Assembly: GCA_958295945.1 (NCBI GenBank)
Contig: OY282386.1
Location: forward strand, 4,148,204-4,212,203
Reading direction: 5' to 3'
Length of the DNA stretch: 64,000 bases
Source: Candidatus Poribacteria bacterium
GTDB lineage: Bacteria > Poribacteria > WGA-4E > WGA-3G
This document shows, piece by piece, positions 5,745 to 64,000 of the stretch. The position numbers and the translations under genes were made by a program. The notes below the pieces were generated by a model, which was not told the DNA's origin, searched no databases, and was given only the letters and a program-made list of their open reading frames with translations. Each line of letters opens with the position of its first letter. Position 1 is the stretch's first letter.

Positions 5745-6926
5745 TTAAAATACTAATCCTGCTGTAACTTCAAGAAGTCGTTTTTGAAAAGGGCCGAGTC
5801 CTACTGCTCCATACGTCAGGTCAAATTTTACAGTATAAGCCTGTACCCCAATACCGTAAGTGAAAAAATCGGACAAATCTAAGAGAAAAGGACCGACATT
5901 AGAAAATTTGAAACCGTCATCAAATTGATCGGATAACTTTGTACGATTTGGGGCAAAGGGGTCAACTTTGTGTCCGATACGGAATGCAAAGGTATTAGCA
6001 AGCCAGTATTCTAAGCCTATGCTTTTTTCAAGATGTCTCCACTCAAAGGCACGTATCCCCACTCCCCGATCAGATAAAACTTGTTCGCGTGTAATTTCAT
6101 ATCCGTTCTCATTTTGGGTTTGTATGTAGAGTTCAAGCTCACTTTCATCTTCAACCCATTTATCAATTCTTGCCGTTAAACCTGTAACGAGCCGGACATG
6201 GTTGTTTTTACTTTGGAAAAGACTTGTTGCGGAGCCTATACGAAATAATGCTGGCAATGGATCGGCTTGATTTTCATCAATAAAATGTATTTTTGGACCA
6301 ATGTTTTGAATTGCAAATCCGAGTGTAGTTGGAAGTAAATTGGTAGAAAGTCTGTATTGACTTCCAAAATCAACTGCATAAGAGTAAGATCCTCCACCTT
6401 CACTACCGAGTACAACTCTGATCATCTTTGCACTTATCCCTGTTGTGAATCTATTTGTAATTTGGTCAGCATAAGAGAATGTAAAGACAAAGTTTGTTCC
6501 GAGGTTTTCTTCTCGTATTGGATCGGGAGAATCTGTTGTAACAAGACTTGTTCCTTGTCCTTGCATCTGAACGGTTGTTCCTATTGCTCCGTAATTACCT
6601 AAAGGAAGTGCTCCAGTAATAAAAGTGTAATACAATCCTTCTCCTGCTTCACCAAATAAATCACCTTGGTTTTTGTAATACATAGAGACACGTGGACCGA
6701 ATTTTTCGGTCTGAAAATTGCTTTTGGTGATGTTAACTAATCCACTTGGATTCCAGAGTGTAGTCGTAACATCGCCTGACATTGCAGAAAAAGCGTCACC
6801 CAGTGCAGTGGCGCGTGCTCCACCACCTAAGTTTAAAATCACAGATCCAGTCCTACCTGCACCTGCAAAAACTGTAATAGGTATAAAGAAAACTACCAAT
6901 AAAAATAGCGTAAAATATCGTTTCAT
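5745..6926 (-). CDS. PorV/PorQ-family (UPF0164) outer-membrane barrel protein
   Basis: 393 aa. Signal peptide MKRYFTLFLLVVFFIPITVFA, then the family hallmark LGGGARATALGDAFSAMSGDVTTTLWNPSGL (residues 33-63). In this family the motif (metabolically unassigned, FadL-like barrel fold) precedes a beta-barrel. The rest has alternating hydrophobic/polar strands and ends in a C-terminal Phe (TAGLVF), as expected for a BAM substrate. PorV itself is an outer-membrane shuttle of type IX secretion, but the wider family occurs in bacteria without that system. It is the first gene of an operon with the DUF5683-like and DHDPS-like genes. Two paralogs lie in the window at 51055-51987 and 56727-57728. Confidence 0.85.
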   Translation of the reverse strand: MKRYFTLFLLVVFFIPITVFAGAGRTGSVILNLGGGARATALGDAFSAMSGDVTTTLWNPSGLVNITKSNFQTEKFGPRVSMYYKNQGDLFGEAGEGLYYTFITGALPLGNYGAIGTTVQMQGQGTSLVTTDSPDPIREENLGTNFVFTFSYADQITNRFTTGISAKMIRVVLGSEGGGSYSYAVDFGSQYRLSTNLLPTTLGFAIQNIGPKIHFIDENQADPLPALFRIGSATSLFQSKNNHVRLVTGLTARIDKWVEDESELELYIQTQNENGYEITREQVLSDRGVGIRAFEWRHLEKSIGLEYWLANTFAFRIGHKVDPFAPNRTKLSDQFDDGFKFSNVGPFLLDLSDFFTYGIGVQAYTVKFDLTYGAVGLGPFQKRLLEVTAGLVF

Positions 6927-10432: not shown

Positions 10433-11821
10433 ATGATTGCCAATAAATGTTATGTATATTTGTTGATTTCTTTCTGTTTGGTTTTTACTAATACTTTTAC
10501 ATACGCTGCGGTAATTGAAGTTCCCGCAGACCAACCTTCAATCCAAGCCGGTATTGATGCTGCAAAAGATGGTGATACGGTCTTAGTAGCTGATGGCAGA
10601 TACATCGGGGAAGGCAATGTAAATATTGACTTTATGGGAAAACAGATTATTGTTAAATCTGAAAATGGTCCTGAAGAGACAATTGTAGACTGTCAGTTAA
10701 TTCCAAATACACGCGGATTTATCTTTCAAAATGAGGAGACAAATGATGTTGTTTTAGAAGGATTTACAATCACGAATGCAAACCATGAGGAACGTGGTGG
10801 TATATATTGCACCAATTCTGCACCTACGATTAAGAATTGCAATATTCTGTCAAATCGAGGTGGAATCTACTGTGTTGATTCTAATCCAACGATTATAGAC
10901 TCTAAAATATCCAACAACAATTCTGGTTCTGGCGTTTCATTTAATAGGCATCCTGACAAGGATTTTGAAGATGGTCAATTCAATAGACCAAGGCTACTCA
11001 ATTGTATTGTATCTGAAAATGATGGCTGTGGTATATCTACTTTTGATGGTGCTTCTGTTGAAATCATTGGTTGCAAAGTATCCAAAAACAAGAGTTGTGG
11101 TATTGCCAGTGATTTCTTCTCCACTGTCCATATAAGATATTGTGAGATTTCGCAGAATACTGGTGGCGGAATAAGAGGCACTGAATATTCAGGTTTAAAT
11201 ATCACTGATTCGATTATCAAACAGAATACAGCTGAAAATGGTGGTGGCATCTCTTGTAGTCCTACATCAAGGCTTAAAGTTATAGGGTGTGTTATAGCAG
11301 AAAATATAGCAACAGAATCAGGTGGTGGTATTGATATTTATTCTTCCTTTGGACATGCGTCTATAGCTTACTGTACAATTACAAGAAACACTGCGAATGT
11401 TAGAGGTGGAGGCGTGAATGTTGAACTCAGGGGTTCACCCTTTAAATGCACTAATTCTATTATTTGGGGGAATGTATCAAAAGGCACTCATCCAGAAGTT
11501 TTTGGATCGGGTCCAACTGTTAGTATAAGATCATGTGATATACGACACGGACTTGAAGGGTTTGGAGAAAATTGGGCAGAGTTTATTTTCTATCAAGATA
11601 ACATTGATGAAGACCCTCTCTTCGTAAATGCTGAAACTGGTGATTATCGACTTAGACGTAACAGTCCTGCCAAAGAAATGGGGGTAACCGCACCTCGCGA
11701 AGAACCAGAAGAGGGAGAAATTGAAGAAATTGAAGAGAAAGAGGATTTTATAGAAAAATCTCTCAGTGTGAACGCAGCAGGAAAACATATTGTCCAATGG
11801 GCTGACATTAAGCGTAGATAA
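10433..11821 (+). CDS. Secreted right-handed beta-helix protein 1
   Basis: 462 aa. Signal peptide MIANKCYVYLLISFCLVFTNTFTYA, then VIEVPADQPSIQAGIDAAKDGDTVLVADGRY, the N-terminal cap typical of pectate-lyase-like/DUF1565 parallel beta-helix proteins. About 14 short coils follow (I-x-N-C/S-x-I-x2-N and GGGI turns, residues 90-390), ending PLFVNAETGDYRLRRNSPA. Unlike its three tandem paralogs it has an acidic insert (EEPEEGEIEEIEEKED) before the C-terminal motif LSVNAAGKHIVQWADIKRR. Shine-Dalgarno AGGAG lies 6 nt before ATG, just after the MITE. The family binds or cleaves polysaccharide, but no catalytic residues can be assigned; function unknown. Confidence 0.85.
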   Translation: MIANKCYVYLLISFCLVFTNTFTYAAVIEVPADQPSIQAGIDAAKDGDTVLVADGRYIGEGNVNIDFMGKQIIVKSENGPEETIVDCQLIPNTRGFIFQNEETNDVVLEGFTITNANHEERGGIYCTNSAPTIKNCNILSNRGGIYCVDSNPTIIDSKISNNNSGSGVSFNRHPDKDFEDGQFNRPRLLNCIVSENDGCGISTFDGASVEIIGCKVSKNKSCGIASDFFSTVHIRYCEISQNTGGGIRGTEYSGLNITDSIIKQNTAENGGGISCSPTSRLKVIGCVIAENIATESGGGIDIYSSFGHASIAYCTITRNTANVRGGGVNVELRGSPFKCTNSIIWGNVSKGTHPEVFGSGPTVSIRSCDIRHGLEGFGENWAEFIFYQDNIDEDPLFVNAETGDYRLRRNSPAKEMGVTAPREEPEEGEIEEIEEKEDFIEKSLSVNAAGKHIVQWADIKRR

Positions 11822-11848
11822 GTCGTTACATGAGGATAGGAGGATAAC

Positions 11849-13234
11849 ATGAACACTTATAAAGGAAGTGTCTATATCTTTATCTATCTAATATTGGTTT
11901 GTGGCAATATCTCAGCATTCGCTGCAACGCTTGTTGTTCCAACAGAACATCCCACAATTCAATCAGGTATAGATGCAGCAGTAGATGGGGATACGGTTCT
12001 TGTTAGAGATGGTTCCTATAAAGGAGATGGTAATGTTAACATTGACTTTAAAGGGAAACGCATTACTGTAAAATCACTTAATGGTGCAAAGCATACGAAA
12101 ATCCATTGTAGATGGAAAGAAAACACACGAGGCTTTATCTTCCAGAATTCGGAAACCAACGATACTGTTTTAGAGGGATTTACCATCAGCAATGGCAAAC
12201 ATGATTTTGGAGGCGGAATTTTCTTTAATGGTGCATCACCAACCATTAAAGATTGTGTGATTACTTGGAATAGTGCTAAAACAAAAGATCGTTTCACTGG
12301 TCGTGGTGGTGGTATTTATGTGCTAAATTCAGATGTAAAAATAATAGGATGCACAATTTCAAACAATTGGAGTGATTCTTATGGCGGTGGCATATATTTA
12401 GAGGGTCATAGAGATGTGAATGGTGATTTACGTGATCAACGCTTTCAACCGAGTATAATCAACTGCACAGTAACCGATAATAAAGGTAGTGGAGTATATA
12501 GCATAGAATATGTCAGAACAACTATTTTGAATTCTGAAATATCTAAGAACAAGGGTCGTGGTGTAGTTAATACATTTGTCTCTCGTGGTTCTCAAATAAC
12601 CAATTGTCTTATTTCACTAAACACCGAAGGCGGTATAGAATGCAGTGATAATTCCAGTATGATGATTACAAAAACTATCATCAAACAAAATATTGGAGAA
12701 ATCGGAGGAGGTATTTTCTGTAGTTCGACTTCTTCTATTGATGTTTCTGATTGTATTATTGCACAAAATATAGCAACAGACTCTGGAGGAGGAATTGGAG
12801 TTTTATCTACAAACGGTGATGCGGTAATTGCAAACTGTACGATTGTTCGGAACTCAGCTAATCATAACGGTGGTGGATTATACGCATTCATAGAAGGATC
12901 ATTCTTTTCTTTGACAAAATCTATACTTTGGGGAAATAATTCAAACGAGACAAATCCAGAATTTTCTGGAATTGGTGGCAGAATTAGTATCAGTTTTTGT
13001 GACATACGTGACGGACTTGAAGGGATAGAACGTGAACCGGATGGAAAGTGGTTTATCTATGAGGATAACATAGATGAAGATCCACTCTTTGTAGATGTTG
13101 ATAGAGGTGATTATAAGCTTAAACGGCATAGTCCGGCAGAAAACATGGGGGCACAATCGCACGTCGGTCGATCACTCAGTGTTTCTTCTGTTGGGAAAAA
13201 GTTGACATTATGGGCAGATTTGAAACGTAAATAA
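11849..13234 (+). CDS. Secreted right-handed beta-helix protein 2
   Basis: 461 aa paralog of its neighbours on both sides. Signal peptide through about residue 25 (ending SAFAA), cap LVVPTEHPTIQSGIDAAVDGDTVLVRDGSY, beta-helix coils with repeated GGGI turns, the closing DEDPLFVDVDRGDYKLKRHSPA, and the C-terminal motif LSVSSVGKKLTLWADLKRK. Preceded by AGGAGG 7 nt before ATG and 27 bp after gene 1. Exported; substrate or ligand unknown. Confidence 0.85.
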   Translation: MNTYKGSVYIFIYLILVCGNISAFAATLVVPTEHPTIQSGIDAAVDGDTVLVRDGSYKGDGNVNIDFKGKRITVKSLNGAKHTKIHCRWKENTRGFIFQNSETNDTVLEGFTISNGKHDFGGGIFFNGASPTIKDCVITWNSAKTKDRFTGRGGGIYVLNSDVKIIGCTISNNWSDSYGGGIYLEGHRDVNGDLRDQRFQPSIINCTVTDNKGSGVYSIEYVRTTILNSEISKNKGRGVVNTFVSRGSQITNCLISLNTEGGIECSDNSSMMITKTIIKQNIGEIGGGIFCSSTSSIDVSDCIIAQNIATDSGGGIGVLSTNGDAVIANCTIVRNSANHNGGGLYAFIEGSFFSLTKSILWGNNSNETNPEFSGIGGRISISFCDIRDGLEGIEREPDGKWFIYEDNIDEDPLFVDVDRGDYKLKRHSPAENMGAQSHVGRSLSVSSVGKKLTLWADLKRK

Positions 13235-13245
13235 GAAATATATAC

Positions 13246-14652
13246 ATGGAGGATATGATGAAAAAGTCAAGATTCTTAGTAATTCTAACTTTCATTATTG
13301 GTTTGTTTTGTATAGGTAATCTGTCGTTTGCGGCAATAATTAATGTAGCACCAGAAAAAATGACAATCCAAGAAGGAATTGATCTTGCTGAAAGTGGTGA
13401 TACGGTTTTGGTTGCTGATGGCATCTATAAAGAAGATGGAAATGTTAACATTGATTTCAAAGGCAAGAAGATTACTGTTAAATCCGAGAATGGTCCAGAG
13501 GCAACTATTATTGATTGTGAGTCAACACCGAACACACGAGGTTTTATCTTCCAAAATGATGAAACACATAATTCTATACTGGATGGATTTACGATTAAGA
13601 ACGGCATACATGACCTCGGTGGAGGCATCTTCTGTGACTCTTCTTCTCCAATGGTAATGAACTGTATCATTTCTTGGAATACTGCTGTAGCTGCGAACTT
13701 TCATGCTCAAGGTGGTGGTGGAATTTACTGTTTCAATTCTGATGCGGTATTTGATTCATGCCTTATAACCAATAATACTGCTGAATCTACCTTTGGTGGT
13801 GGAGTCTTTTTTGATGGTGCGTGGATAAGAGACGATGTTGTATTGAGAGAAATTACTCCTGAGCCGTCCCTTCTTAATTGCACAATCTCAGACAATAATG
13901 GCGGTGGTGTCTTTTGTTTTGATGATGTTGATCCGATAATTCAAGATTGTAAAGTTTCTCAGAATAGTGGCAGCGGAATTGTCTACAACTTTTTTCTGCG
14001 AACACAGAATCCCATCATTAATTGTATAATTGAACAAAACAGTGATAGCGGCGTTGTATGCAGTGAGGCATCATCGTTGAAGATCATGGATTCTATAATT
14101 AGGCAAAATGTTGGAGAAATCGGTGGTGGGATTTTTTGTAGTCCAACATCTGTAATTGAAGTATCAAATTGTATAATTGCAGAAAATATAGCGACAGAAT
14201 CTGGTGGTGGTATTGGTGTAATATCCACGAGAGGAGAAGCAATTATTAGCAACTGTACAATCACGCGAAATACAGCAAATGAACGTGGCGGTGGAGTTTA
14301 TACATCAATTGAAGTCTCACATTTTACTCTTTCCAATTCTATTGTCTGGGGTAACAATTCCAATGGAACACATGACGAATTTTCTGCTATAGGTGAAACA
14401 ATAGAAATCACTTCTTGTGATATTCGTGATGGACTTGAAGGAATTGGTCGTCAACCGGATGGAAAGTGGTTTATCTATGAAAACAACATTGATAAAGATC
14501 CTCTATTCGTGAATCCAGATAGAGGGGATTATAGCCTGAGTCGCAACAGTCCTGCTGAGGGGATGGGAGCTCAAACTTCTGGTGTGGGAACACTCAGTGT
14601 TGTTCCACGTGGCAAACAATTAACGATGTGGGCAAATATAAAGAGAAGATAG
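13246..14652 (+). CDS. Secreted right-handed beta-helix protein 3
   Basis: 468 aa. Starts 11 bp after gene 2; the first ATG (13246) and one three codons later (13255/13258, after GGAGG) are both possible, the second having better Shine-Dalgarno spacing. Signal peptide ending LSFAA, cap INVAPEKMTIQEGIDLAESGDTVLVADGIY, coils with GGGIYC/GGGIFC turns, closing DKDPLFVNPDRGDYSLSRNSPA and C-terminal motif LSVVPRGKQLTMWANIKRR. It is closest to gene 2 by eye, for example the shared RQPDGKWFIYE/REPDGKWFIYE stretch near residue 400. Function unknown. Confidence 0.85.
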   Translation: MEDMMKKSRFLVILTFIIGLFCIGNLSFAAIINVAPEKMTIQEGIDLAESGDTVLVADGIYKEDGNVNIDFKGKKITVKSENGPEATIIDCESTPNTRGFIFQNDETHNSILDGFTIKNGIHDLGGGIFCDSSSPMVMNCIISWNTAVAANFHAQGGGGIYCFNSDAVFDSCLITNNTAESTFGGGVFFDGAWIRDDVVLREITPEPSLLNCTISDNNGGGVFCFDDVDPIIQDCKVSQNSGSGIVYNFFLRTQNPIINCIIEQNSDSGVVCSEASSLKIMDSIIRQNVGEIGGGIFCSPTSVIEVSNCIIAENIATESGGGIGVISTRGEAIISNCTITRNTANERGGGVYTSIEVSHFTLSNSIVWGNNSNGTHDEFSAIGETIEITSCDIRDGLEGIGRQPDGKWFIYENNIDKDPLFVNPDRGDYSLSRNSPAEGMGAQTSGVGTLSVVPRGKQLTMWANIKRR

Positions 14653-14661
14653 TACATATTT

Positions 14662-16065
14662 ATGGAGGCAACTATGACAAACAAAAGAGTACTTATAATA
14701 CCATTGATTGTTCTAAGTCTGGTTTTTATATATTCACATGTTCATGCTGCAATAATTAACGTTCCTGCAGATCAACCGACAATACAATCCGGGATTGATG
14801 TATCAAAAGATGGTGACACAGTATTAGTCGCTGACGGTTTTTACAGAGGCGATGGTAATGTCAATATAAATTTCAATGGAAAAGCGATAACTGTAAAATC
14901 TCAGAACGGACCAAAGGTAACAACCATAGACTCTGAAAGTAGGGCAAATACAAGAGGAGTCACTATCAACAACAATGAAACTCCTGCCTCCGTGCTTGAT
15001 GGTTTCACTGTCATGAAAGGTAGACATCAATTTGGTGCTGGTATCTTCATTGATAAAGCCTCACCGACAATAAAAAACTGTATTATCACACAAAACCGTG
15101 CTGGAACTCCTGCAGACTATAGTGGTAAAGGCGGAGGAATCTATTGCAAAGATTCTGATGTGCTAATTGAAGATTGCATTATATCTGACAACATTGTCGG
15201 CTCAAATTTCAGTGGTGGTGTTCATTTTGAAGGTATATGGGATGCAATCGGTGATAGATCAAGGCCAGTAATATTGGATTCTATAGTTAGAGATAACACA
15301 GGTAGCGGCATTTATAGTGAAGGTCGTCTGACTGTTGAAATTAGGGGATGTACAGTTTCTAATAACAGTCTTCGTGGTGTAGTGTGTACTGCGAATTATT
15401 ATGTAGGTATAAATCTCATTTCAAAATCACTAATTGAACAGAACAGTGGCGGAGGTGTTGACGTAACTGAAAGTACAAATTTAGATATCATAGAATCTAC
15501 AATCAGAAGAAATACTGCCAGATCTGGTGCGGGTGTTTCATGTAGTCGAACTTGTAAGTTAAACATATCCGAATGTATCATTGCAGAAAACGAAGCATCA
15601 AAATGGGGTGGTGGATTGGATATTGAATCTTGGATGGGTAGCGTAACTATTTCTCGGACAACAATTACTCATAATACTTCAGTTCAATTCGGTGGAGGTA
15701 TCTTTTTCAATGGTCTTCCAACATTTTCGCGTAGATTAACCCTAACAAATTCAATCGTATGGGGAAATAAATCTGAAGGTAAGTATGATGAGATTTTGGC
15801 TGGTGGAAATCAGGTATATATCAAGTCAAGTAATATCGGTGGTGGATTGAATGGACTGAATAGAGAAGCTGATGGACAAAAACTAATATATGTAGATAAT
15901 ATTGATGCTGACCCGCTCTTTGTTGATGCAGCAAGAGGAGATTATAGACTAATGGAACATAGTCCCGCTGCAGGAATGGGTCCGCAATCCAATGTTGGTG
16001 GTTTTCTCAGTGTTGCTCTAGTCGGTAAGCGTTTAGTGCAATGGGGAGAACTGAAACGTAAGTGA
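14662..16065 (+). CDS. Secreted right-handed beta-helix protein 4
   Basis: 467 aa. The last and most divergent of the tandem set by eye. The track start is MEATMTNKR; the second ATG (14674), after GGAGG, is the better-spaced start. Signal peptide ending VHAA, cap INVPADQPTIQSGIDVSKDGDTVLVADGFY, beta-helix coils, closing DADPLFVDAARGDYRLMEHSPA and C-terminal motif LSVALVGKRLVQWGELKRK. A 79-bp gap with its own promoter separates it from lysS, so the four beta-helix genes form a unit. Function unknown. Confidence 0.85.
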   Translation: MEATMTNKRVLIIPLIVLSLVFIYSHVHAAIINVPADQPTIQSGIDVSKDGDTVLVADGFYRGDGNVNINFNGKAITVKSQNGPKVTTIDSESRANTRGVTINNNETPASVLDGFTVMKGRHQFGAGIFIDKASPTIKNCIITQNRAGTPADYSGKGGGIYCKDSDVLIEDCIISDNIVGSNFSGGVHFEGIWDAIGDRSRPVILDSIVRDNTGSGIYSEGRLTVEIRGCTVSNNSLRGVVCTANYYVGINLISKSLIEQNSGGGVDVTESTNLDIIESTIRRNTARSGAGVSCSRTCKLNISECIIAENEASKWGGGLDIESWMGSVTISRTTITHNTSVQFGGGIFFNGLPTFSRRLTLTNSIVWGNKSEGKYDEILAGGNQVYIKSSNIGGGLNGLNREADGQKLIYVDNIDADPLFVDAARGDYRLMEHSPAAGMGPQSNVGGFLSVALVGKRLVQWGELKRK

Positions 16066-49762: not shown

Positions 49763-50839
49763 ATGCCATACAAGACCCATAAAATCACATTAGATCCGAC
49801 ATTTAAGCAGAGGCGTTGGTTTTCCCAACAATGTGGTTATGCGCGTTTTGCGTATAATCAAGCGTTGTCAGATTTTAAGATTGGATTAGATAATGATAAC
49901 TTCCAATCATGGCGAACCCTTAATAACACCTTCAACAAAGCGAAAAAGCGTTATGAGTGGACACGTTCACAAGACCAAAGAGCTGCACTGTATGCCATCA
50001 GAAATCTTGGGCAAGCGATTGCGAATTGGCTATCCAAGCGTGCGAAGTTTCCAAAGTTCAAAAAGCGTGGAATTAGGGACGCTTGGACAACGGACGAACA
50101 ATCCGTGCGAGTAGAAGGTAAACGTATCAAGTTGCCAAAAATCGGTTGGGTCAAAATGTTTCAACCCTTACGTTTTGAAGGCAAGATTATCAGCGTAACG
50201 ATTTCAAGGACAGCACACCGTTGGTTTGTATCTATCACCGTCCAAACAGAGGACACCGCAGCAGTTGACACCTCAACACACCCTGTAATCGGTATAGATG
50301 TCGGTATCAACACATTAGCAACCTTGAGTGATGGCACAAAATATCATAATCCGAGACCGCTAAAACGCTATGAACGAAAACTAAAACGAGAACAACGCAA
50401 GTTAAGCCGCAAAGTGTTCACGTCTAAAAACTGGTATAAGCAAAAACATAAAGTGGAACGAGTTCATTACAGAATCGGTTGTATCCGAAGCGATGCACAT
50501 CACAAAGCAACAACTACTATTGCTAAACGAGCAAGTCGTATCACAGTGGAAACACTAAATATAACGAACCTGCTAAAAAATAGAAGTTTAGCAAAAGCAT
50601 TAGCAGATAGTGCATTAGGCGGGTTTCTACAGAAACTCAAGACGAAAGCAGACGCATTAGGAATACCCATCACAGAAGCACCGCAATTCTATGCATCCAG
50701 TAAAACTTGTTCCAGTTGCGGACATAAGAAAAAAGACCTAACACTTTCAGAGAGAACATATCACTGCAACGTATGCCAATATCAAGAAGATAGAGATGTA
50801 AACGCTGCAATAAACCTAAAAAACCTCGCTGTCGGATAG
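49763..50839 (+). CDS. tnpB: TnpB RNA-guided endonuclease (IS605 OrfB)
   Basis: 358 aa. TnpB is the RNA-guided nuclease ancestral to Cas12. The RuvC-like residues are visible: Asp in VIGIDVGINTLATLSDG (near 180), Glu in ITVETLNITNLL (near 260) and Asp in QEDRDVNAAINLKNLA (near 342). The zinc ribbon is CSSCGHKKKDL and YHCNVC (about 313-332). All catalytic residues are retained, so it should be active. The 3' flank is the expected location of its guide (omega) RNA. Confidence 0.93.
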   Translation: MPYKTHKITLDPTFKQRRWFSQQCGYARFAYNQALSDFKIGLDNDNFQSWRTLNNTFNKAKKRYEWTRSQDQRAALYAIRNLGQAIANWLSKRAKFPKFKKRGIRDAWTTDEQSVRVEGKRIKLPKIGWVKMFQPLRFEGKIISVTISRTAHRWFVSITVQTEDTAAVDTSTHPVIGIDVGINTLATLSDGTKYHNPRPLKRYERKLKREQRKLSRKVFTSKNWYKQKHKVERVHYRIGCIRSDAHHKATTTIAKRASRITVETLNITNLLKNRSLAKALADSALGGFLQKLKTKADALGIPITEAPQFYASSKTCSSCGHKKKDLTLSERTYHCNVCQYQEDRDVNAAINLKNLAVG

Positions 50840-50975
50840 ACAGAGAGAATAAACGCCTGTGGAGTCCGAATAAGACCTCACACAGTTCAGAATAGAGGCA
50901 CGAGAGACGGAAGCAGGAATCACATAGAGGAGAGTTATGTGTTTCAAAGAAGCACACGACTTTAGTCGTAGTGAG
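50780..50975 (+). ncRNA. Probable omega RNA overlapping the tnpB 3' end
   Basis: In this family the guide RNA overlaps the 3' end of tnpB and runs to the transposon right end. Here the non-coding 135 bp after the stop contain AATAGAGGCACGAGAGACGG and GGAAGCAGGAATC, blocks typical of IS605-type right ends, and the terminal hairpin ACGACTTTAGTCGT. The guide would be the sequence right after the element (about 50980 onward). Boundaries are inferred. Confidence 0.55.
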
Positions 50976-51054
50976 TATCACCAAAATCAATGATATAAAC
51001 ACTAACTCTATACATTTTTATTCTAACTGCCTAATGTTTTTACCAGACAAATAT

Positions 51055-51987
51055 ATGAAACGAATAATTGCATTCATCCCTATCATTCTTTTCCTATTCA
51101 CGAGTATTCCTATATTAGCAGATAACTCCGATATACACGAAAATGCAGGCACACGTGCAATGACATTCTTAAAAATAGGTGTCGGTGCAAAGGCGATTGG
51201 TATGGGAGAGTCGCAAGTCGCTGCAACAGATGACTTATACGCTTCCTTTTGGAACCCAGCAGGACTAATCAAGCTTGAAAGACCGCAACTTGCCCTAATG
51301 CACAACGAATGGTTTGCAGAGATAAATCAAGAATTTGTAGGAATAGCACTCCCAATTGGAAAAAGCAATTCAGTGGGGATCAGTGCGAACTTTCTGTCCT
51401 TCGGTGATATAGAAGGACGAGATCAAGATGGAAATTTAACTGAAGTATTTCGTCCTTATGATCTCGCAATGATATTATCTTATGCGCGTGGATTTGGTAA
51501 TACATTGAGTTTTGGCGTAAATGCCAAATACATCAGAGAACAGATTTCTGACGAAAACGGGACAGGTGTGGCGTTTGATTTTGGTGGGTTATACAACTTT
51601 TCACAATTTCCAATCTCCATCGGCATCAATGCACAAAATGTCGGTCCACGAGTGAAATATGTTGAAGATGCGTTTCAACTCCCATTTGTTCTAAGAGTGG
51701 GAACTGCGTATAGGTTACTAAACGATGATGCAATCTTAACGATGGATTTCATAAGACCTACCGATAATGATAATGCATTCGCAGTTGGAATAGGTTATAC
51801 GATTGCAAATATTCTGCAAATTCGGACTGGCTATAAATACCAACTCGGAGGAAACGATTTAGGGGCTAATTCCGGTTTAACCGGAGGTTTTGGTTTGTCA
51901 ATACTCAGATTCCAAATTGATTATGCACTCGTGTCGTTAGGAGATTTGGGATTGACACATCGACTATCGTTGATTGCCAATTTCTAA
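51055..51987 (+). CDS. PorV/PorQ-family (UPF0164) outer-membrane barrel protein
   Basis: 310 aa from ATG 51055, which begins a clear signal peptide (MKRIIAFIPIILFLFTSIPILA). The longer frame starts inside the IS element end. Family hallmark FLKIGVGAKAIGMGESQVAATDDLYASFWNPAGL near residue 45, beta-strand-rich body, and C-terminal Phe (SLIANF). Paralog of the genes at 5745-6926 and 56727-57728, closest to the latter by its FLKIxxGxxxxGMG motif. The tnpB element ends about 75 bp upstream and may have displaced the native promoter. Confidence 0.85.
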   Translation: MKRIIAFIPIILFLFTSIPILADNSDIHENAGTRAMTFLKIGVGAKAIGMGESQVAATDDLYASFWNPAGLIKLERPQLALMHNEWFAEINQEFVGIALPIGKSNSVGISANFLSFGDIEGRDQDGNLTEVFRPYDLAMILSYARGFGNTLSFGVNAKYIREQISDENGTGVAFDFGGLYNFSQFPISIGINAQNVGPRVKYVEDAFQLPFVLRVGTAYRLLNDDAILTMDFIRPTDNDNAFAVGIGYTIANILQIRTGYKYQLGGNDLGANSGLTGGFGLSILRFQIDYALVSLGDLGLTHRLSLIANF

Positions 51988-53047: not shown

Positions 53048-53090
53048 GTATATTTATAGTAAACTTTTGAATTAATGAGACATTTTGAGA

Positions 53091-53156
53091 TGTCCGAGCG
53101 AACTCCGATTCTTGATTATCACTGCGTTAACTCGCGATTCGGAGATCGCTCCTACA
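53091..53156. repeat. 66-bp palindromic repeat, copy 1
   Basis: The right arm GCGATTCGGAGATCGCTCCT is identical to that of copy 2 at 53283-53348, and the left arm (GAGCGAACTCCGATTC) is its imperfect complement. The spacer TGATTATCACTG is also shared in part. REP-like extragenic palindrome. Confidence 0.7.
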
Positions 53157-53282
53157 GGTATCTGTATTATTATTTTCAATGTTCACTATAATTAAATATC
53201 GTACCATTATTTAGCACTTGTTTAGAAAACGCATAAAAACTGAAACTATGGTAGAATTTAGAATTAAATGAACATTAGGAAT

Positions 53283-53348
53283 TGTAGGAGGGAACTCCGA
53301 TTCCCGATAATCACTGAATTAAATCGCGATTCGGAGATCGCTCCTACA
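53283..53348. repeat. 66-bp palindromic repeat, copy 2
   Basis: TGTAGGAGGGAACTCCGATT at the left pairs imperfectly with AATCGCGATTCGGAGATCGC...CTCCTACA at the right, around a spacer of about 20 bp. Same family and orientation as copy 1, 192 bp away. Confidence 0.75.
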
Positions 53349-53581
53349 GTGGTGTGTCCAATTATTTTCATACTTCACCATAAATACTCTGATTCAAGAA
53401 ACGGGTGTGTAAAGTTATTGTCACCTTATACTTCAATATATTGTAGATCATGCTCCTCTGAGCAAAAAAGATATGTCGAACTCTAAAAATCCTAATTCAG
53501 ACAAGAAACTCAAAATTTAATCAAAAATCAAGGAATTCTCTATAAATTCACGAAAAACTATGAATATTATTACATTTTTAC

Positions 53582-54533: not shown

Positions 54534-54911
54534 CACAACGTAACATGGCAACCTGCGGATCCTGACGAGGACCCACAAGCCACAAACAATACACAGTATC
54601 GGTGGTCAGTTCAAGGGGGAAACGCATGGCATTGGGATCGTATCAATCACTGGTTAAACGCGGGAACAAATGAACGAATTTGGGAGTTTGATGCACCAGG
54701 AGAAACAGTGTTGCGGATTGGCGTGCGTGAAGATGCAACAAAGTTAGACGCTATTTTTGTAACATCAAATACGAACGCAGTGAATCCTGTCCAAGCCAAT
54801 GTTCGCGTTCCAACCGATGAAGATAGGGAGTTGCAGATTGAGGGATTAGCAGTTGACGCAAAGGGGAAAGTGACAACCACCTGGGGTTCACTAAAAAAGT
54901 CGTATCGGTAA
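54534..54911 (+). pseudogene. C-terminal remnant of a secreted protein
   Basis: Open frame of 125 codons from 54534 (after an in-frame TAA) to the TAA at 54909, with no start codon at its head. It reads QYRWSVQGGNAWHWDRINHW near 54600, then WEFDAPGETVLRIGVREDAT, a carbohydrate-binding or jelly-roll-like beta pattern, and ends LAVDAKGKVTTTWGSLKK plus three residues. The ending matches the C-terminal motif of the four beta-helix proteins at 10.4-16 kb in spacing and key residues, though the rest is unrelated. Its N-terminal part is missing from the window. Confidence 0.65.
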
Positions 54912-56726: not shown

Positions 56727-57728
56727 TTAAAACCTTGTAATGATAGATATTCGGTGTGAATTGCTTTCAAAATCGGTTTGTGGGACGAAAGCATAATCAA
56801 ATTGGAAACCCACATTTGCTAAGGAGTCCAATCCTTTCTTTTTAACTCCAATACCGATTGACAATCCATCATTTGGATTGTCGTTTAGTCCGATACGATA
56901 ACCGATTCGTGCAGCAATAATATCGTAAAACCATCTCTCAACACCGAAGTGGAAACTTGGATTTGCATCAATAAGAGGAAGATGTGCATCTGCCACGAAT
57001 GCCCATAATTCATGTTGTTGCATCCCTTCTTCACCTTCAATTTCAACTTCCTTTGACAATCTATATGCAAATCCTGCCCGAAGTGCAAGTGGAGGGTATT
57101 CACTGGGAAGATCTTCGTCGCGTTCAGAGTCTTCAAAAAATACGCCAGCATTTTGTACGGTAAAACCAAGTCCGAGTCGATTATCTAAGAAGTGTGTGAT
57201 TAAGCCGAAGTCCACTGAGGCTCCGTACACGTTTTGTATATCCAATTGTTGCGAAATGAATTTCGCTGTACCTCCAATTGAACTGGATTTACCGAGTGGG
57301 TATGCAAGAGATAATCCAGTAGCAAACCCGCCTACTGTTACGGCACTATCAGGGGTTTCCGATGGACCTGTTCTGCGTTGAACTTCAGTGAAACTTCCTA
57401 CCAAACTTGCTCCCCAAACGATATCATTTAATCGCTGGGCATATCCGATAGATTGGCTGCTAATATCTGCAACCCAGAAGTGCTGCATTGCGGTAAGTGC
57501 ACGTGTCTGAATGGTAGTTAGACCTGCGGGATTCCAAAATATGGTATTGATGTCGTTTGCAAGTCCAGTAAACGCTCCACCCATTCCAACAGGTCTGCTT
57601 CCAGGTTCGATTTTGAGAAAAGCTGCCCCCGCAGTTCCAGCACCGTCAGAGAGATCTTGAGCGAAACTATGTGCTCCGGTTAGGAGTAGGGCAATGGTTA
57701 GAACTGCTACAACTACACTTTTGTGCAT
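56727..57728 (-). CDS. PorV/PorQ-family (UPF0164) outer-membrane barrel protein
   Basis: 333 aa. Signal peptide MHKSVVVAVLTIALLLTGAHSFA, then AGAAFLKIEPGSRPVGMGGAFTGLANDINTIFWNPAGL (about 33-70), the family hallmark, a beta-rich body and C-terminal Phe (ISIITRF). It follows the giant Ig-like gene by 41 bp and is probably co-transcribed with it. This pairing of a surface protein and a PorV-like barrel is suggestive because PorV shuttles cargo in type IX secretion, but no other T9SS gene is in the window. Confidence 0.87.
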   Translation of the reverse strand: MHKSVVVAVLTIALLLTGAHSFAQDLSDGAGTAGAAFLKIEPGSRPVGMGGAFTGLANDINTIFWNPAGLTTIQTRALTAMQHFWVADISSQSIGYAQRLNDIVWGASLVGSFTEVQRRTGPSETPDSAVTVGGFATGLSLAYPLGKSSSIGGTAKFISQQLDIQNVYGASVDFGLITHFLDNRLGLGFTVQNAGVFFEDSERDEDLPSEYPPLALRAGFAYRLSKEVEIEGEEGMQQHELWAFVADAHLPLIDANPSFHFGVERWFYDIIAARIGYRIGLNDNPNDGLSIGIGVKKKGLDSLANVGFQFDYAFVPQTDFESNSHRISIITRF

Positions 57729-57769
57729 TATCTGTCTCCTTTTCGTTTGTTTCCGTTTTTGAAGCTGTA

Positions 57770-60700
57770 TTAGTCAACGACAAGTATCTTGCCGACAGCG
57801 TTAGCGCGATTTCCTGCTCCATCGACTGCTTCTAAACGGAACACGTAAATGCCGCGCGCGACTCGGTTTCCAGCACTGTTTTTCAATTGCCAACTAACTT
57901 CGTTCCCATTTCGATGTCCGGGTTCTATTCTGTCATAAGTTTTGGAATAAACCATGTCACCGCTCCAATCATAAATGTAAAGACCCAACTTGACTGTATC
58001 GTCCGAGGTATTTAGTTCGTAGGAGAAGAATCCAACATCGTCATTGGATTGGCGTAATGGGTTCGGCCAAACAAATGTGTTTCCACTGAACGTAAAGGAA
58101 ACGGACATCGTGACCTCTCCATAATCGTATACAGCGTAGTTCCCTGCTCTATCAGTGACTCGTATATCCAAGTCGTAGTCTCCAGATCGGGTTGGTAGGA
58201 AATCAGCCGTCCAACGACTCCACGGTTCTTGTTGTGCATCACTGTCGTCCTCTGCTGGCACCGGTTCAATAGGTTGTCCATCTGGTCCTGTGCCAACGAT
58301 TTCAACGAGCCATACACCAGATGCAGGAACTGGGACTTCATTTTCGCCTTGTTGTCCTGCTCTACGGACACCTTCTGGGTCTGTAGCAGTTCCGATTAAT
58401 GGCAGTGCTTCGTCAGTAAGTTCCGTTTTGCCGCCATCATCTGTTACAACTGCAGTTGGTTCTGTTGTTTCGTATAGGAACGCTGTTGTAATAGATCCTT
58501 GAGGCGTAATACCGAGTAGTTCAGTGTCATTGCCAGTAGCGGTGACTGTTACTTGGTAGATGCCTTCAATATTCAACCCATCTGATTTGAAGACCAACGT
58601 GTCAACCCCATTTTGTCGAGTGGTTCCGGAGAGTTCTTGACTATTGGGATTTCTTACGGAGATTCGGGATTGTGATAGATTGACACCTAATCCTGTGTCA
58701 GAAACAACCGCCTGAATAACAACACCACCGGGGGTTGAAACTGCACTTGGATAATCGTCAGCATCAATATCAGTCAGCAGTGGTGCATCATTTAACAGCA
58801 GTGAGTTTGGATCAATAACAGGTGGACTTGTGTCGTAGGTAAATTCTTTCTCGTAAGTTTCATCTCCATTCCCTGCTTTGTCTATAGGCGTAACGGTAAT
58901 TCTGTATTTTCCATCTGCAGACCCATCGTCAGCGAGTGGGACATTAAGAGTGAATATAAGATGCTCAGGTTCATCAGACACATATTGTACACTACCATCT
59001 ATGTCATCAGAATCAGGAGAAATCCGCTCAAAGGTTACCCAATCTGTATCAAGGTTTTCCCAATCTACACCCGCCTGGTTATCGGTAATATCCAAACGAA
59101 TTCTGACGAGTGAATTGTCTACCTCCTGTTCGGCAACGATAAGATGTACATCTTTGGGATCAAGTTCAGGTGATTGCGTATCGTAAGTGAAGACCAGACT
59201 TTGTGCGGTACCACTACGACCAGATGAACTTATAGGTGTAAATTCAATTGTATAATCCCCATCTTCAGATCCATCTGTTGTGAGTGGACGGACTAACCTA
59301 TAAATTAACTTTCCGGTTGCCCGATGCTGCTGTCCCGCTATTTCTTGTCCCTCAGCATTCAATAAACGCACTGTTGAAAGATGACGTGTATCTACAGTTT
59401 CAAGTAGGACTTCAATCTCATCAACTTCTTGATTTGTATACGCTTCATCTCTGGGAGCAGTGATTGGCACTGTAGAAACAATAGCCGGTAATCGTCTTGA
59501 AAGTAGGAAATCACTTTCATGGACAGTTCTGCCTCCGTTTCCTGCTCTATCAATTGCTTGAACCTGTATAACATATCGTCCATCTGCTACGAGTTGATTT
59601 GTCTTAAGAGTCAATTGGGATTTTCCATCGCTGGATAAATCACCTGAAATTGTTATACCGTTCGGATCAATCAATGTCACCGTTGTACGCGACCAATCTA
59701 TGCCGCTTTCACCCTTATCGTCAAGACTTACCTGAATTTGTGTTATGTCTTCAGTCAATTGTTCATTATCAGCGGGAACTGTGCTGACAAGGGTCGGTGC
59801 TTGTGTATCATACACAATAGGGTGATTAATAGAAAGAACATTTTCTGATCTATCGGAGAATGCTATTTCCAAGGTATATTGACCATCCCTACTACCATCA
59901 AGTGGAAGTGGTTCGTCAAGTGTGAGGAAGAGTTGATTATTCGTATCATTCGTAAGTTTTGTCGGCACAAGAACACCACTTTGATTTCGTAGTGTCACTA
60001 CCTGATCTTCCAGCATCAAATCTGCAGGTCCAACATCCTGAATAGTCCATTGGAATTGTGTTAGACTTTCGCTGATATATGAGACCGGTTGACTCAGGTC
60101 CATCGGTGAAGCGTTTGTAATTTCGGGTTCTTGGGTGTCATAAACAAACTCGCGATAGACTACATTCGCCTCACGTCCCTTTTTGTCAACAGCATAAACA
60201 TATACAGCGTATCTCCCATCGGAACTACCATCGTTGGAGAGTGTTATAGGTCTCCACACAAGTAGGTCAGTTCCATTAGTGGCTACTGATCCTCGAACGA
60301 TTGTTCCATCAAGTGTTGCCACGATTATATTAGAACCGCCAGTAGTATCAAAAGATAACCCCGTGCCAGCGGGATCAAGTAGATTCGCCGCAATTACAAG
60401 ATTGTCAGCATTGACATAAGCTGTGTCTGCGCTTCCCAATGTTATAGTGTCACCGATAATGATGGACTCAACATCGGGGAGAATGAATTCAAGATTAAAC
60501 GCATATTGAATCGGACTTTGTGCAACATTTCCTGCAATGTCTTGTGGTGTTACTGATAATGTATACTGACCGATTTGTGTCAAAGCAACAAAACTGAGTG
60601 TCATTTGAGAGACACCATCATCGCCTACAGTAAGAGGAATCGTTTGGGAATTTGGATCGAGCAGTAAAATACTTGTGTTTTCAAAATCAACCCGCGTTGC

Positions 60701-63700
60701 TTCGTTGAACTTAATCGTGATAGTGTCAACAGATTCAGAAAGTTCTGCGACCTGACTTGGCGAAAGTTCTATAGGCGTTCCAGCAGTATTTACTTGAACA
60801 GATGATACTTGCGGTATAATTGAATCGTAGACCAGATTAAATCGTGTGGTTAAACGATTGCCAGCTTTGTCAATAAGGAGTACATTGAGCGTATAAGGTC
60901 CGTCTGCGGTACCGTCACTGGCAAATGGAGTGTCAAGAGTTAAATACAACTGATTTGTCAGTTCATCATAAGTCAACTTTGCTGGGACGGGTTTGCCTGT
61001 CGCATCCATCAATGCTACGACTTGAGAGGCATACACGATATCAGACGGACCCACATCTTCAACGGTGAGAACAAATTGATTTAACCCACTGCCGAGATAA
61101 GAAATAGGTGCATGAAGCGTTATGGGGGTAGCAGATGTTAAGCGAGGTGCTTGTGTATCATAGATAAATTGCCTTCGGACAACAGTACCTGTGCGTCCAA
61201 CCTTATCAACAGGTGTGATAACAACTGTATATTCCCCATCAGCACTTCCATCTACTGGAAGTGGTATCGGTATCCACGTTAACTGATTTGCTGCATTGAG
61301 GGTCGTAGTTGCAGATACCTGTATGCCTTGTGAATTGGTAACGACAATAGTAGAACCGGTATCTCCTACAGACAACCCAACACCAAGTGAATCGGTGATA
61401 GCTGCGATGATTCTGGGAACGGCTGTTTTTACGTATACAGTTGAACCTACTTTTCCATCAATGAGAACAGAATCGACTGTTGGTAATGTTGTATCAAGTC
61501 GGAACTGGTATCGGATAGCCGTTTGGGCTACGTTTCCTGCGATATCTTGTGGTGTTACAGAAATCGTGTAGATGCCACTTTGTGTCAATGGTACGAAACG
61601 AACCGTTAGTTGAGAGTTTTCATTGCCTTCAAGCGTGACAGGGATTTCCTGACCGTTTGGATCTGACAATGTTACGGTGGTGTTCACAAAGTCAACACGT
61701 TGTGCATCAGTGAACTTCAATGTCAGACTACCTATAGATTCAGAAATCTCAACAATGTCATGTTGAATGAGAGCAACAGAAGTATCATCGGCATGTGCTG
61801 TTACAGATTCTAAACCCGGCACTTCAAATTTTAACCTAAATTGGTAGGAAACAGCATTCTGTGCAACAGTACCGTCAATATCTTGTGGTGTGATAGAAAG
61901 TGTATACAAACCACTTTGGTCTAAGGCGACAAATCGCACAGACAACGTTGCATCATCATCGTCTTCTAAAATAACAGGTATCTGTTGTCCGTTGGGGCCC
62001 GTCAAAACCACACTTGTCCTTTCAAAATCGACTCGCGATTCATTTGTAAATTCAAGTGTGAAGCCTTGGACAGGTTCAGAGAGTTCAATAATCTCATAAG
62101 GAGTGAGATCTAAAGAAGTATCTGCAGTGTTAACTTTTACGGAGGCTATCTCCGGCATATCAAACTCCAACCTAAACGGATACGACACAACTCCCTGTGC
62201 GGTATTTCCAGCAATATCTTGCGGTGTGACAGTAAGCGTATATAAACCCTCTTGAGTTAAGCTGACAAAACTTACAGTTAATTGGTCAAGACCATTATTT
62301 TCTAATGTGAGTGGGATTGCAGTATTATTCGTCCCTGTGAGTGTGACAGTCGTAGCCGCGAAATTAACCTGTGTTGTCTCAATGAAATTCAAGGTAAGTT
62401 GATTAACAGACTCAGATAGATCTGTAATTTGATACGGTGTTAGGACAATCGGTATCTCAGTATTCAGAGAGACTGCTGATATCCGTGGTACTTGCGAATC
62501 ATAATAGATTTTGTGTGTAGTTTGATGTGTGTTACCTGCTTTATCAACGAGGTTGATCGTCAGCGTGTATTCTCCATCTTCGCTTCCATCAGTGGATAAA
62601 GGTGTCGTTGGTGTAAAGAAAAGTCTGTTAACGCCATCATTTGTTACATGTCCGGCAACTATTTCTCCATCTTCATTCCTCAATCCGATTGTTTGATCTG
62701 CCAGATCAAGTAATGATGGACCAACATCTTCAACTGTGAATTCAAACGGTGGCATATTTCCACCTATATACGACATAGGTTGATGGAGTATGATTGATGT
62801 AGCATTGGTTATTCGTGGTGCTTGTGTGTCGTAAATAAAGTGGCGAGTGACTACTGTCCCCGTCCGTCCAGATTTGTCTAAAGGTGTGATAGTAACAGTA
62901 TATCGTCCATCGGCACTACCATCTGTCGGAAGTGCTGCGGGAGTCCACGTCAACTGGTTAGTTCCGTTGGAAGATATGATTCCAGTAACAACAATGCCTT
63001 GGTCATTATTGACAGTGATTGTTGATCCGCTATTGCCAAACGCTAACCCGACACCACTTGCATCGGCGAATGTTGCAACTATCTCTGTATCAGGATCATT
63101 AATCAAAATATTTGTTCCGGGTTTGCTGTCAATAAGTACAGAACTCACTGTCGGAAGAGTGATGTCAAGTTTAAACTGATATTGCATCGGACTTTGTGCA
63201 ACATTCCCGCCAATATCTTGTGGTGTAATAGAGAGTGTATAGAGTCCGTTTTGTCCCAATGTGACAAAACGTGCCACAAACTGTGAACCGTCTCCATGTT
63301 CTTTTGTAACAGTGTTCACTTGTCCATTAGGTCCTGTCAAAGTCACTGTGGTCCTTTCAAAGTCAACACGCGATGCGTCTGTAAATGTAACCGTGAAATT
63401 GCTAATAGTATCAGTAATATCAAGAATCTTATAGGCAGCAAGTTCATAAGATGCGTCAACAGAGTTTGCATGAACTGAGGTAATACCTGGCACTTCAAAC
63501 TTCAACTTAAATGGATAGGGGACTTCCCCTTGTGGAGTATTACCAGTCATATCTTGTGGAGTAACGGAAAGCGTATACAAGCCGCCTTGTATTAGGGAGA
63601 CAAAACTCGCGGTTATTTCGTCAGTCCCGTTGTTTTCAAGTGTTAACGGGATTGTTGAACCATCCGGACCCATTAATGTGATAATCGTATTATCAAAATC

Positions 63701-64000
63701 GATCCTTGTCATTTCTATAAAGTTTAGTGTGATTTTGCTGATAGAACCTGGTAGATCTGTAACTTGATAAGGTGTTAGATTTAACGGTGTTTCTGTATTC
63801 AACGAGACTGAAACTATCTGTGGTGCTTGAGAATCATAAATAATAGTATGCTGGACTTGAGATGGATTACCTGCTTTGTCAACAAGGTTGACCGTAAGTG
63901 TGTATTCTCCATCAGCACTCCCATCAGTTGGCAATGGAGCAGGGAGTGTGAAGAAGAGTTGATTGTTGTTATCGTGTGTAATATGTCCGGCAACAGCTTC
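57770..64000 (-). CDS. Giant Ig-like repeat surface protein (5' end beyond window)
   Basis: At least 2,076 aa; the frame stays open to the window edge, so the N-terminus is missing. It is built of Ig/cadherin-like modules of about 100 aa. DGSxDGxYT occurs about ten times and DKAGN/DRAGN recurs near each module end, suggesting calcium-binding loops. Blocks opening with DTQAPRITNA...QPMSYIGG repeat near 62.8, 61.1 and 60.1 kb, separated by variable numbers of LTPYxI-type modules. The C-terminus (last ~100 aa, FVWPNPLRQSNDD ... SGDMVYSKTYD ... RGIYVFRLEAVDGAGN) is a FlgD-Ig/CHU-C-like domain. Probably a secreted adhesin or matrix protein. Confidence 0.85.
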   Translation of the reverse strand, partial: EAVAGHITHDNNNQLFFTLPAPLPTDGSADGEYTLTVNLVDKAGNPSQVQHTIIYDSQAPQIVSVSLNTETPLNLTPYQVTDLPGSISKITLNFIEMTRIDFDNTIITLMGPDGSTIPLTLENNGTDEITASFVSLIQGGLYTLSVTPQDMTGNTPQGEVPYPFKLKFEVPGITSVHANSVDASYELAAYKILDITDTISNFTVTFTDASRVDFERTTVTLTGPNGQVNTVTKEHGDGSQFVARFVTLGQNGLYTLSITPQDIGGNVAQSPMQYQFKLDITLPTVSSVLIDSKPGTNILINDPDTEIVATFADASGVGLAFGNSGSTITVNNDQGIVVTGIISSNGTNQLTWTPAALPTDGSADGRYTVTITPLDKSGRTGTVVTRHFIYDTQAPRITNATSIILHQPMSYIGGNMPPFEFTVEDVGPSLLDLADQTIGLRNEDGEIVAGHVTNDGVNRLFFTPTTPLSTDGSEDGEYTLTINLVDKAGNTHQTTHKIYYDSQVPRISAVSLNTEIPIVLTPYQITDLSESVNQLTLNFIETTQVNFAATTVTLTGTNNTAIPLTLENNGLDQLTVSFVSLTQEGLYTLTVTPQDIAGNTAQGVVSYPFRLEFDMPEIASVKVNTADTSLDLTPYEIIELSEPVQGFTLEFTNESRVDFERTSVVLTGPNGQQIPVILEDDDDATLSVRFVALDQSGLYTLSITPQDIDGTVAQNAVSYQFRLKFEVPGLESVTAHADDTSVALIQHDIVEISESIGSLTLKFTDAQRVDFVNTTVTLSDPNGQEIPVTLEGNENSQLTVRFVPLTQSGIYTISVTPQDIAGNVAQTAIRYQFRLDTTLPTVDSVLIDGKVGSTVYVKTAVPRIIAAITDSLGVGLSVGDTGSTIVVTNSQGIQVSATTTLNAANQLTWIPIPLPVDGSADGEYTVVITPVDKVGRTGTVVRRQFIYDTQAPRLTSATPITLHAPISYLGSGLNQFVLTVEDVGPSDIVYASQVVALMDATGKPVPAKLTYDELTNQLYLTLDTPFASDGTADGPYTLNVLLIDKAGNRLTTRFNLVYDSIIPQVSSVQVNTAGTPIELSPSQVAELSESVDTITIKFNEATRVDFENTSILLLDPNSQTIPLTVGDDGVSQMTLSFVALTQIGQYTLSVTPQDIAGNVAQSPIQYAFNLEFILPDVESIIIGDTITLGSADTAYVNADNLVIAANLLDPAGTGLSFDTTGGSNIIVATLDGTIVRGSVATNGTDLLVWRPITLSNDGSSDGRYAVYVYAVDKKGREANVVYREFVYDTQEPEITNASPMDLSQPVSYISESLTQFQWTIQDVGPADLMLEDQVVTLRNQSGVLVPTKLTNDTNNQLFLTLDEPLPLDGSRDGQYTLEIAFSDRSENVLSINHPIVYDTQAPTLVSTVPADNEQLTEDITQIQVSLDDKGESGIDWSRTTVTLIDPNGITISGDLSSDGKSQLTLKTNQLVADGRYVIQVQAIDRAGNGGRTVHESDFLLSRRLPAIVSTVPITAPRDEAYTNQEVDEIEVLLETVDTRHLSTVRLLNAEGQEIAGQQHRATGKLIYRLVRPLTTDGSEDGDYTIEFTPISSSGRSGTAQSLVFTYDTQSPELDPKDVHLIVAEQEVDNSLVRIRLDITDNQAGVDWENLDTDWVTFERISPDSDDIDGSVQYVSDEPEHLIFTLNVPLADDGSADGKYRITVTPIDKAGNGDETYEKEFTYDTSPPVIDPNSLLLNDAPLLTDIDADDYPSAVSTPGGVVIQAVVSDTGLGVNLSQSRISVRNPNSQELSGTTRQNGVDTLVFKSDGLNIEGIYQVTVTATGNDTELLGITPQGSITTAFLYETTEPTAVVTDDGGKTELTDEALPLIGTATDPEGVRRAGQQGENEVPVPASGVWLVEIVGTGPDGQPIEPVPAEDDSDAQQEPWSRWTADFLPTRSGDYDLDIRVTDRAGNYAVYDYGEVTMSVSFTFSGNTFVWPNPLRQSNDDVGFFSYELNTSDDTVKLGLYIYDWSGDMVYSKTYDRIEPGHRNGNEVSWQLKNSAGNRVARGIYVFRLEAVDGAGNRANAVGKILVVD

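Follow-up and report, generated by a model that had tools for sequence, protein, structure and literature searches.

A candidate C-terminal sorting tag on exported proteins of the Poribacteria

Four tandem beta-helix genes and one decayed gene in a 64,000-nucleotide stretch of a Candidatus Poribacteria genome (GenBank assembly GCA_958295945.1, contig OY282386.1, positions 4,148,204 to 4,212,203; the window) end in a common motif of about 20 residues. We propose, with a probability of roughly 0.75, that this motif acts after Sec export as a C-terminal sorting tag of a new kind. The proposal is based on the fixed position of the motif at the C-terminus, its presence on 28 unrelated clusters of protein bodies, the type I signal peptides without lipobox on these proteins, the predicted flexibility of the tail, and its occurrence across the phylum.

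Results

A conserved motif at the extreme C-terminus

An earlier note on the window had described four beta-helix open reading frames (ORFs) with a shared C-terminal pattern and an unrelated, decayed ORF ending in a variant of it. The four ORFs and their tails were present at exactly the positions given there (Table 1), the decayed ORF indeed ends in a variant with the same spacing, and all five tails carry an invariant L, V, G, K, W and K at fixed positions. The motif as first written is real in these tails, but the beta-helix version, GK-x-[LI]-[VT]-x-W-[AG]-x-[LI]-K-R, proved to be a divergent subtype; the usual form is LAVEPxGKLTTTWGxLK, to which the tail of the decayed gene is nearer than are the beta-helix tails. 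The overall consensus is L-[AS]-V-[ED]-[PA]-x-G-K-L-T-T-T-W-G-x-[LI]-K followed by 1–10 residues.

When the product of the decayed gene was used as a query against the host genome (5.34 Mb, one contig), 28 places were matched, nearly all through the tail alone and on other kinds of protein. A profile assembled from 40 tails, all C-terminal and some from the host genome (profile A2), matched this genome at 140 places with an expectation value (E) ≤10 and at 126 with E≤0.01; the overall figure for the genome is about 138. ORFs were then called in 87 stretches of 20 kb around matches outside the window. Among the resulting 1771 ORFs, 127 profile matches with E<1 were C-terminal (≤12 residues from the stop) versus 2 that were internal. 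Five shuffles of the same ORFs yielded 2 matches at this threshold, neither of them C-terminal, and a chance origin of the tag is therefore excluded. Because the profile contains no positional information, the terminal placement is an independent result. The sole strong internal tag belongs to an FG-GAP-like protein (G000:C1:2936431-2938287, minus strand), where an intact tag stands immediately before a type A domain of the type IX secretion system (T9SS).

Within the 127 tags, no variation was seen in the Trp or in the Lys of the final [LI]K as located; Val is found in 116, the Lys five residues before Trp in 121, and Gly or Ala after Trp in 120; between 1 and 10 residues follow the final Lys. 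Their column composition revealed no hydrophobic stretch or membrane helix, no LPXTG or PEP motif and no conserved Cys. The AlphaFold model of beta-helix protein 4 has a body mostly at a predicted local distance difference test score (pLDDT) of about 90 and a tail at 31–44; the alignment held six sequences, so that the disorder is indicative only, and the tag is accordingly described here as a predicted flexible or disordered tail. Among the matches listed from other genomes, 119 of 124 coding 30-mers differ from one another and all four Thr codons are used, so that it is the peptide that is conserved, not its coding DNA. The invariant Trp and final Lys, set beside this codon variety, point to purifying selection on the tag peptide. 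The possibility that the tag is a DNA repeat or a product of gene conversion was ruled out by the varied codons together with the strict in-frame position at the stop.

Varied bodies, signal peptides and lipid anchors

The 117 tagged proteins of ordinary size fell into 28 body clusters (phmmer E<1e-6) with 48, 17, 6, 4, 4, 3 and 3 members, followed by pairs and singletons. Pfam searches with 121 tagged proteins matched 49 families overall, many of them overlapping, including LamG (58 proteins), TolB/PD40-type propellers (17), beta-helix (6), 3-keto-disaccharide hydrolase (6), CBM9 (4) and NPCBM (2). Several tagged ORFs are long (776–1571 residues). The number of clusters and the low confidence of the modelled tail ruled out the tag as the natural end of a single fold. 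Eleven untagged homologues of tagged bodies were found. Four are broken genes in which the tag can still be read downstream or in another frame, a decay pattern that the remnant in the window fits; among the others are one with a weak tag, a LamG protein with a T9SS domain at its end, and a lipoprotein. A Pfam search with the window remnant itself (54534-54911) gave no match.

Signal peptides, called by a strict heuristic, were present in 108 of 125 tagged proteins compared with 275 of 1190 untagged ones (p 3e-45; odds ratio 21), the untagged background consisting of neighbours of tagged genes and not of a random sample. Inspection by eye of the 17 tagged proteins that were negative by the heuristic showed a signal peptide in 10 (non-ATG start, or one filter failed), truncated frames in 6, and one unclear case. 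A lipobox was found in none of the 108 tagged exported proteins of the host genome versus 34 of the 275 untagged ones (p 1e-5). Two adjacent paralogues illustrate the difference: the one at 4030751-4031395 combines a signal peptide with the tag, and the other, at 4031712-4032380, has a lipobox and ends exactly where the tag extension begins. In the host genome, lipid anchor and tag look like alternatives. The anatomy of the tag ruled out an assignment of the tagged proteins to lipoproteins or to the LPXTG, PEP-CTERM or MYXO-CTERM classes. A signature motif with a membrane helix behind it, the layout of those classes and of GlyGly-CTERM, is absent from the 127 tags.

The earlier note had taken the motif for an export or surface-anchoring tag, and the profile search supports that reading, since its many matches lie at the extreme C-terminus of signal-peptide proteins with varied domains. 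The matches are neither confined to beta-helix paralogues, which make up 6 of the 117 clustered proteins, nor spread through protein interiors or cytosolic proteins, the one strong internal match being that before a T9SS domain.

Distribution of the tag

A degenerate DNA pattern for KLTTTWGxLK was compared with the GTDB species genomes. Poribacteria contributed 78 of 80 records among the matches listed, and all 124 matches in other genomes ended 1–10 residues before a stop (again among those listed). Every one of 59 Poribacteria genomes, the deepest sampled branches included, contained tags, at 37 to at least 150 places each with E≤0.01. The exception L025 is a record labelled Pseudomonadota; L045 is a 24-residue frame and probably a chance match. 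In the control phylum, that of L025, no tag was present in 56 of 58 genomes; the other two, G059 and G085, have 4 and 9, respectively. The tagged proteins of these two genomes (L025; L259-L265) have signal peptides or lipobox-like N-termini, and three contain ankyrin repeats. We conclude that the tag is a feature of the Poribacteria that recurs on a small scale in one other place.

Outer-membrane components of a type IX secretion system in Poribacteria

A single-cell study of Poribacteria reported C-terminal domains of T9SS type, found none of the structural genes of the system, and left the pathway to be revealed (Kamke et al., 2014; PMC3909097). The earlier note had proposed a look for a co-occurring sortase, T9SS or other processing gene; in the host genome, SprA, PorV and PorU genes were identified as candidate readers of the tag. 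In 29 of 30 Poribacteria genomes SprA_N gave a single match, which exceeded the family cut-off in 10 of them, and the matching ORFs are 2020–2300 residues long except for one cut by a contig end. The host homologue aligned with TIGR04189 in colinear stretches (E 1.8e-43), with 148 bits against an equivalog cut-off of 200; SprA may have been missed earlier in Poribacteria because of scores below this cut-off. A SprA profile found no match in the PDB by sequence. When its C-terminal half was modelled (mean pLDDT 63), more than 20 long strands were seen, and the four best PDB matches of this model in Foldseek are all SprA (E 3.7e-23 to 1.6e-17; the next is at 1.3e-5). In VIA-align, the SprA structure 6h3i reached Z 15.3 over 392 aligned residues with a root-mean-square deviation of 6.0, tied with generic beta-barrels, which match the last 400 residues only.

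The PorV family (NF033709) scored above cut-off in 30 of 30 Poribacteria genomes, with 13–25 matches in each, and C25 proteins were likewise found in all 30. Two C25 proteins of about 2150 residues match the PorU sortase model NF033707, one of them with E 6.5e-125 and 418 bits against a cut-off of 420. Ten ORFs in the sampled stretches have a T9SS type A-like (NPFNPETW-type) domain and are conventional candidate clients; TIGR04183 scored above cut-off in the composite protein with tag and T9SS domain and in two PorU-type proteins. Taken together, these results show that Poribacteria have genes for the outer-membrane half of a T9SS, with a divergent SprA, PorU beside PorV, and many PorV paralogues.

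The tag is not a T9SS C-terminal domain. The T9SS recognises a folded seven-stranded beta-sandwich domain that is bound within SprA and PorV (PMC10994853); the tag has about 20 residues and is predicted to be disordered, and TIGR04183 matched just one of 121 tagged proteins. T9SS type B and C models were not among the 25 most frequent families listed for the tagged proteins. Two paired propeller-like proteins likewise have a tag, here decayed and without Trp, directly before a T9SS domain, as if the tag were dispensable once that domain is present, although the numbers are small.

Loci in the window and host genome

The loci discussed above are collected in Table 1. The bodies of beta-helix proteins 1–3 are 46–47% identical to that of protein 4, and the tandem is flanked by genes that we take to be prfB-like and lysS-like. 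The window also contains three PorV/PorQ-family genes. Just upstream of the second is an ORF that appears by eye to be TnpB-like and transposon-derived (49763-50839, plus strand). The third lies directly downstream of an immunoglobulin-repeat ORF of at least 2054 residues, whose end resembles the C-terminal part of PorU and FlgD (56727-63934 including the PorV-family gene, minus strand). Between genes at 53055-53386 there are two direct copies of a 140-nucleotide repeat, 76% identical, with the core GATTCGGAGATCGCTCCTACAG.

Table 1. Tagged genes and type IX components. Plain coordinates are positions in the window; those beginning with G000:C1 or L are given as recorded.
Feature	Position	Strand	Basis
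Beta-helix protein 1, 462 aa: signal peptide, right-handed beta-helix, acidic spacer, tag	10433..11821	+	PF13229 E 1.3e-25; spacer seen in alignment
C-terminal tag LSVNAAGKHIVQWADIKRR of beta-helix protein 1	11762..11818	+	ORF end; profile match
Beta-helix protein 2, 461 aa	11849..13234	+	PF13229 E 2e-20
C-terminal tag LSVSSVGKKLTLWADLKRK of beta-helix protein 2	13175..13231	+	ORF end; profile match
Beta-helix protein 3, 468 aa	13246..14652	+	PF13229 E 5.9e-22
C-terminal tag LSVVPRGKQLTMWANIKRR of beta-helix protein 3	14593..14649	+	ORF end; profile match
Beta-helix protein 4, 467 aa; body confident in AlphaFold, tail not	14662..16065	+	PF13229 E 1.4e-22
C-terminal tag LSVALVGKRLVQWGELKRK of beta-helix protein 4	16006..16062	+	Profile match; pLDDT 31-44
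Remnant of another tagged gene, start region lost, frame open	54534..54911	+	ORF reading
C-terminal tag LAVDAKGKVTTTWGSLKKSYR of remnant	54846..54908	+	Profile match E 3.1e-9
PorV/PorQ-family outer-membrane protein, putative link to tag	5745..6926	-	NF033709 157.9 bits, cut-off 90
PorV/PorQ-family outer-membrane protein, putative link to tag	50971..51987	+	NF033709 202.8 bits, cut-off 90
PorV/PorQ-family outer-membrane protein, putative link to tag	56727..57728	-	NF033709 127 bits, cut-off 90
Tagged genes broken by stop or frameshift, tag readable beyond the break	G000:C1:3864149-3864823, 2526967-2527677, 999078-999818, 449625-450680
Divergent SprA/Sov homologue, 2140 aa	G000:C1:1010676-1017095 (L223:7677-14096)	+	SprA_N, TIGR04189, Foldseek
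PorU-type sortase gene (418-bit match), PorV-family gene directly downstream; ends in T9SS type A-like domain	G000:C1:1640605-1648162 (L268:6606-14163)	-	

Discussion

In the mechanism that we propose, Poribacteria would append a linear tag of about 20 residues to soluble proteins exported through the inner membrane by Sec. The tag would then be recognised by an envelope receptor, which would either direct its carrier to the outer membrane or through it, or keep it at the surface. This receptor may be the type IX outer-membrane machine of the Poribacteria (SprA translocon, PorV-family carriers and PorU sortase), a tentative identification to which we give somewhat less than an even chance; the tag would then be a short substitute for the folded C-terminal domain of the T9SS. 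A link between tag and T9SS is favoured because both are universal in the phylum, because certain bodies and architectures exchange the tag for a T9SS domain, and because PorV paralogues are many.

Several observations weigh against the T9SS as the receptor. Known T9SS signals are folded domains and the tag is not (PMC10994853), and the tag directly before the T9SS domain at 2936431-2938287 would be redundant if one machine read both. Since the tag and the T9SS genes are each universal in Poribacteria, their co-occurrence does not single out this system. Outside the phylum, G059, a 1.9 Mb draft, has tagged proteins but gave no SprA match, and some of the tagged proteins of G085 resemble lipoproteins; neither PorV nor SprA was seen in 460 kb of G085, which is 16% of its contig and says little. 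Of the T9SS motor proteins GldL and GldM (PorL/PorM), GldM was not matched in 12 genomes, in a search that had no positive control, and GldL produced one weak match in 12.

The tag might instead be read, through an envelope receptor, by a dedicated sorting or anchoring system independent of the T9SS, whose genes would then handle just those large proteins that bear a folded T9SS domain. The two tagged genomes outside the Poribacteria, one of them without detected SprA, leave room for such a route. It would also accommodate the tags on lipoprotein-like and ankyrin proteins in G085, the dissimilarity of the tag to T9SS domains in size and sequence, and the fact that Poribacteria have conventional T9SS-domain proteins as well. 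No candidate receptor was found for it, however, G059 is a draft and both outside lineages hold few tagged proteins, and the exchange of tag for T9SS domain in some bodies and architectures is harder to reconcile with it; we consider it about as likely as the T9SS route, and short of an even bet. Its fullest form, a T9SS-independent system with its own receptor that operates in all Poribacteria and at least one other lineage and sorts more than 100 exported proteins per cell by a helix-free linear peptide, appears somewhat less likely than not.

Alternatively, the tag could be a docking peptide that binds exported proteins to a scaffold, such as a surface layer, a matrix or another protein, after they have left by another route. 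A short linear peptide on flexible spacers would suit this role, as would bodies that are mostly carbohydrate-binding or propeller domains, but very large multidomain proteins are tagged too, no scaffold family is known, and the position at the very C-terminus is stricter than docking needs; we regard this explanation as unlikely. Least probable by far, and already contradicted, is the idea that the tail has no sorting function and is either inherited as the common end of a set of paralogues or a DNA repeat located where genes end. Tag subtypes do partly track body families, as in the W-[AG]-x-[LI]-K-R of the beta-helix tails, yet the tag is found on 28 unrelated body clusters, keeps its Trp and Lys despite varied codons, matches in frame at the stop, and is retained in 59/59 Poribacteria genomes.

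In marine sponges, Poribacteria belong to the dominant symbionts. The sorting-tag reading yields a testable list of the proteins that these uncultured bacteria put in their envelope or release into the sponge, and it adds a second and larger class of exported proteins with a tag, often 100 to at least 150 per genome in the main family. SprA, PorU and PorV are now shown in a phylum for which the 2014 study left the export of surface proteins open (PMC3909097). If the T9SS does read the tag, 20 residues would suffice for what otherwise takes a folded domain; failing that, there is a new sorting system still to be found.

Several known systems invite comparison. The T9SS machine of Bacteroidota (SprA, PorV and PorU) resembles that of Poribacteria in that homologues of these proteins are present, PorU adjoins PorV, and T9SS-domain clients occur. 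It differs in that the poribacterial SprA does not reach the NCBI equivalog cut-off, each genome has 13–25 PorV-family genes, and GldL and GldM were not detected in the genomes searched beyond the weak GldL match. The T9SS type A sorting domain (TIGR04183, Por_Secre_tail) is, like the tag, C-terminal, present on Sec-exported proteins of varied function, furnished with a conserved Lys near its end, and found in genomes with SprA, PorV and PorU; it is a folded seven-stranded beta-sandwich, whereas the tag is a short peptide with an invariant Trp and predicted disorder.

Other C-terminal tags can be compared as well. The tripartite layout of MYXO-CTERM includes a membrane helix, and PEP-CTERM combines a PEP motif with a membrane helix and ends in basic residues. 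MYXO-CTERM is a phylum-wide C-terminal tag with an invariant cysteine, carried by dozens of varied exported proteins per genome (PMC11980579), and PEP-CTERM, with its exosortase (EpsH), is a short C-terminal homology region common to otherwise unrelated exported proteins (PMC1569441). The poribacterial tag is similarly phylum-wide and similarly found on many varied exported proteins, as is MYXO-CTERM with its myxosortase, but has neither the Cys nor the helix; with PEP-CTERM it shares the short C-terminal region on unrelated exported proteins, but not the PEP motif or hydrophobic helix. Proteins with LPXTG, the substrates of sortase, also have a C-terminal signal with basic last residues on exported proteins, but the tag lacks both the LPXTG motif and the membrane helix. 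Searches of the literature for the tag motif returned nothing relevant, and no model for the tail was present among the 25 commonest Pfam and NCBIfam families listed for the tagged proteins. The tag is best described as a putative C-terminal sorting tag of new anatomy, with a role like that of MYXO-CTERM and PEP-CTERM but without their motif and helix.

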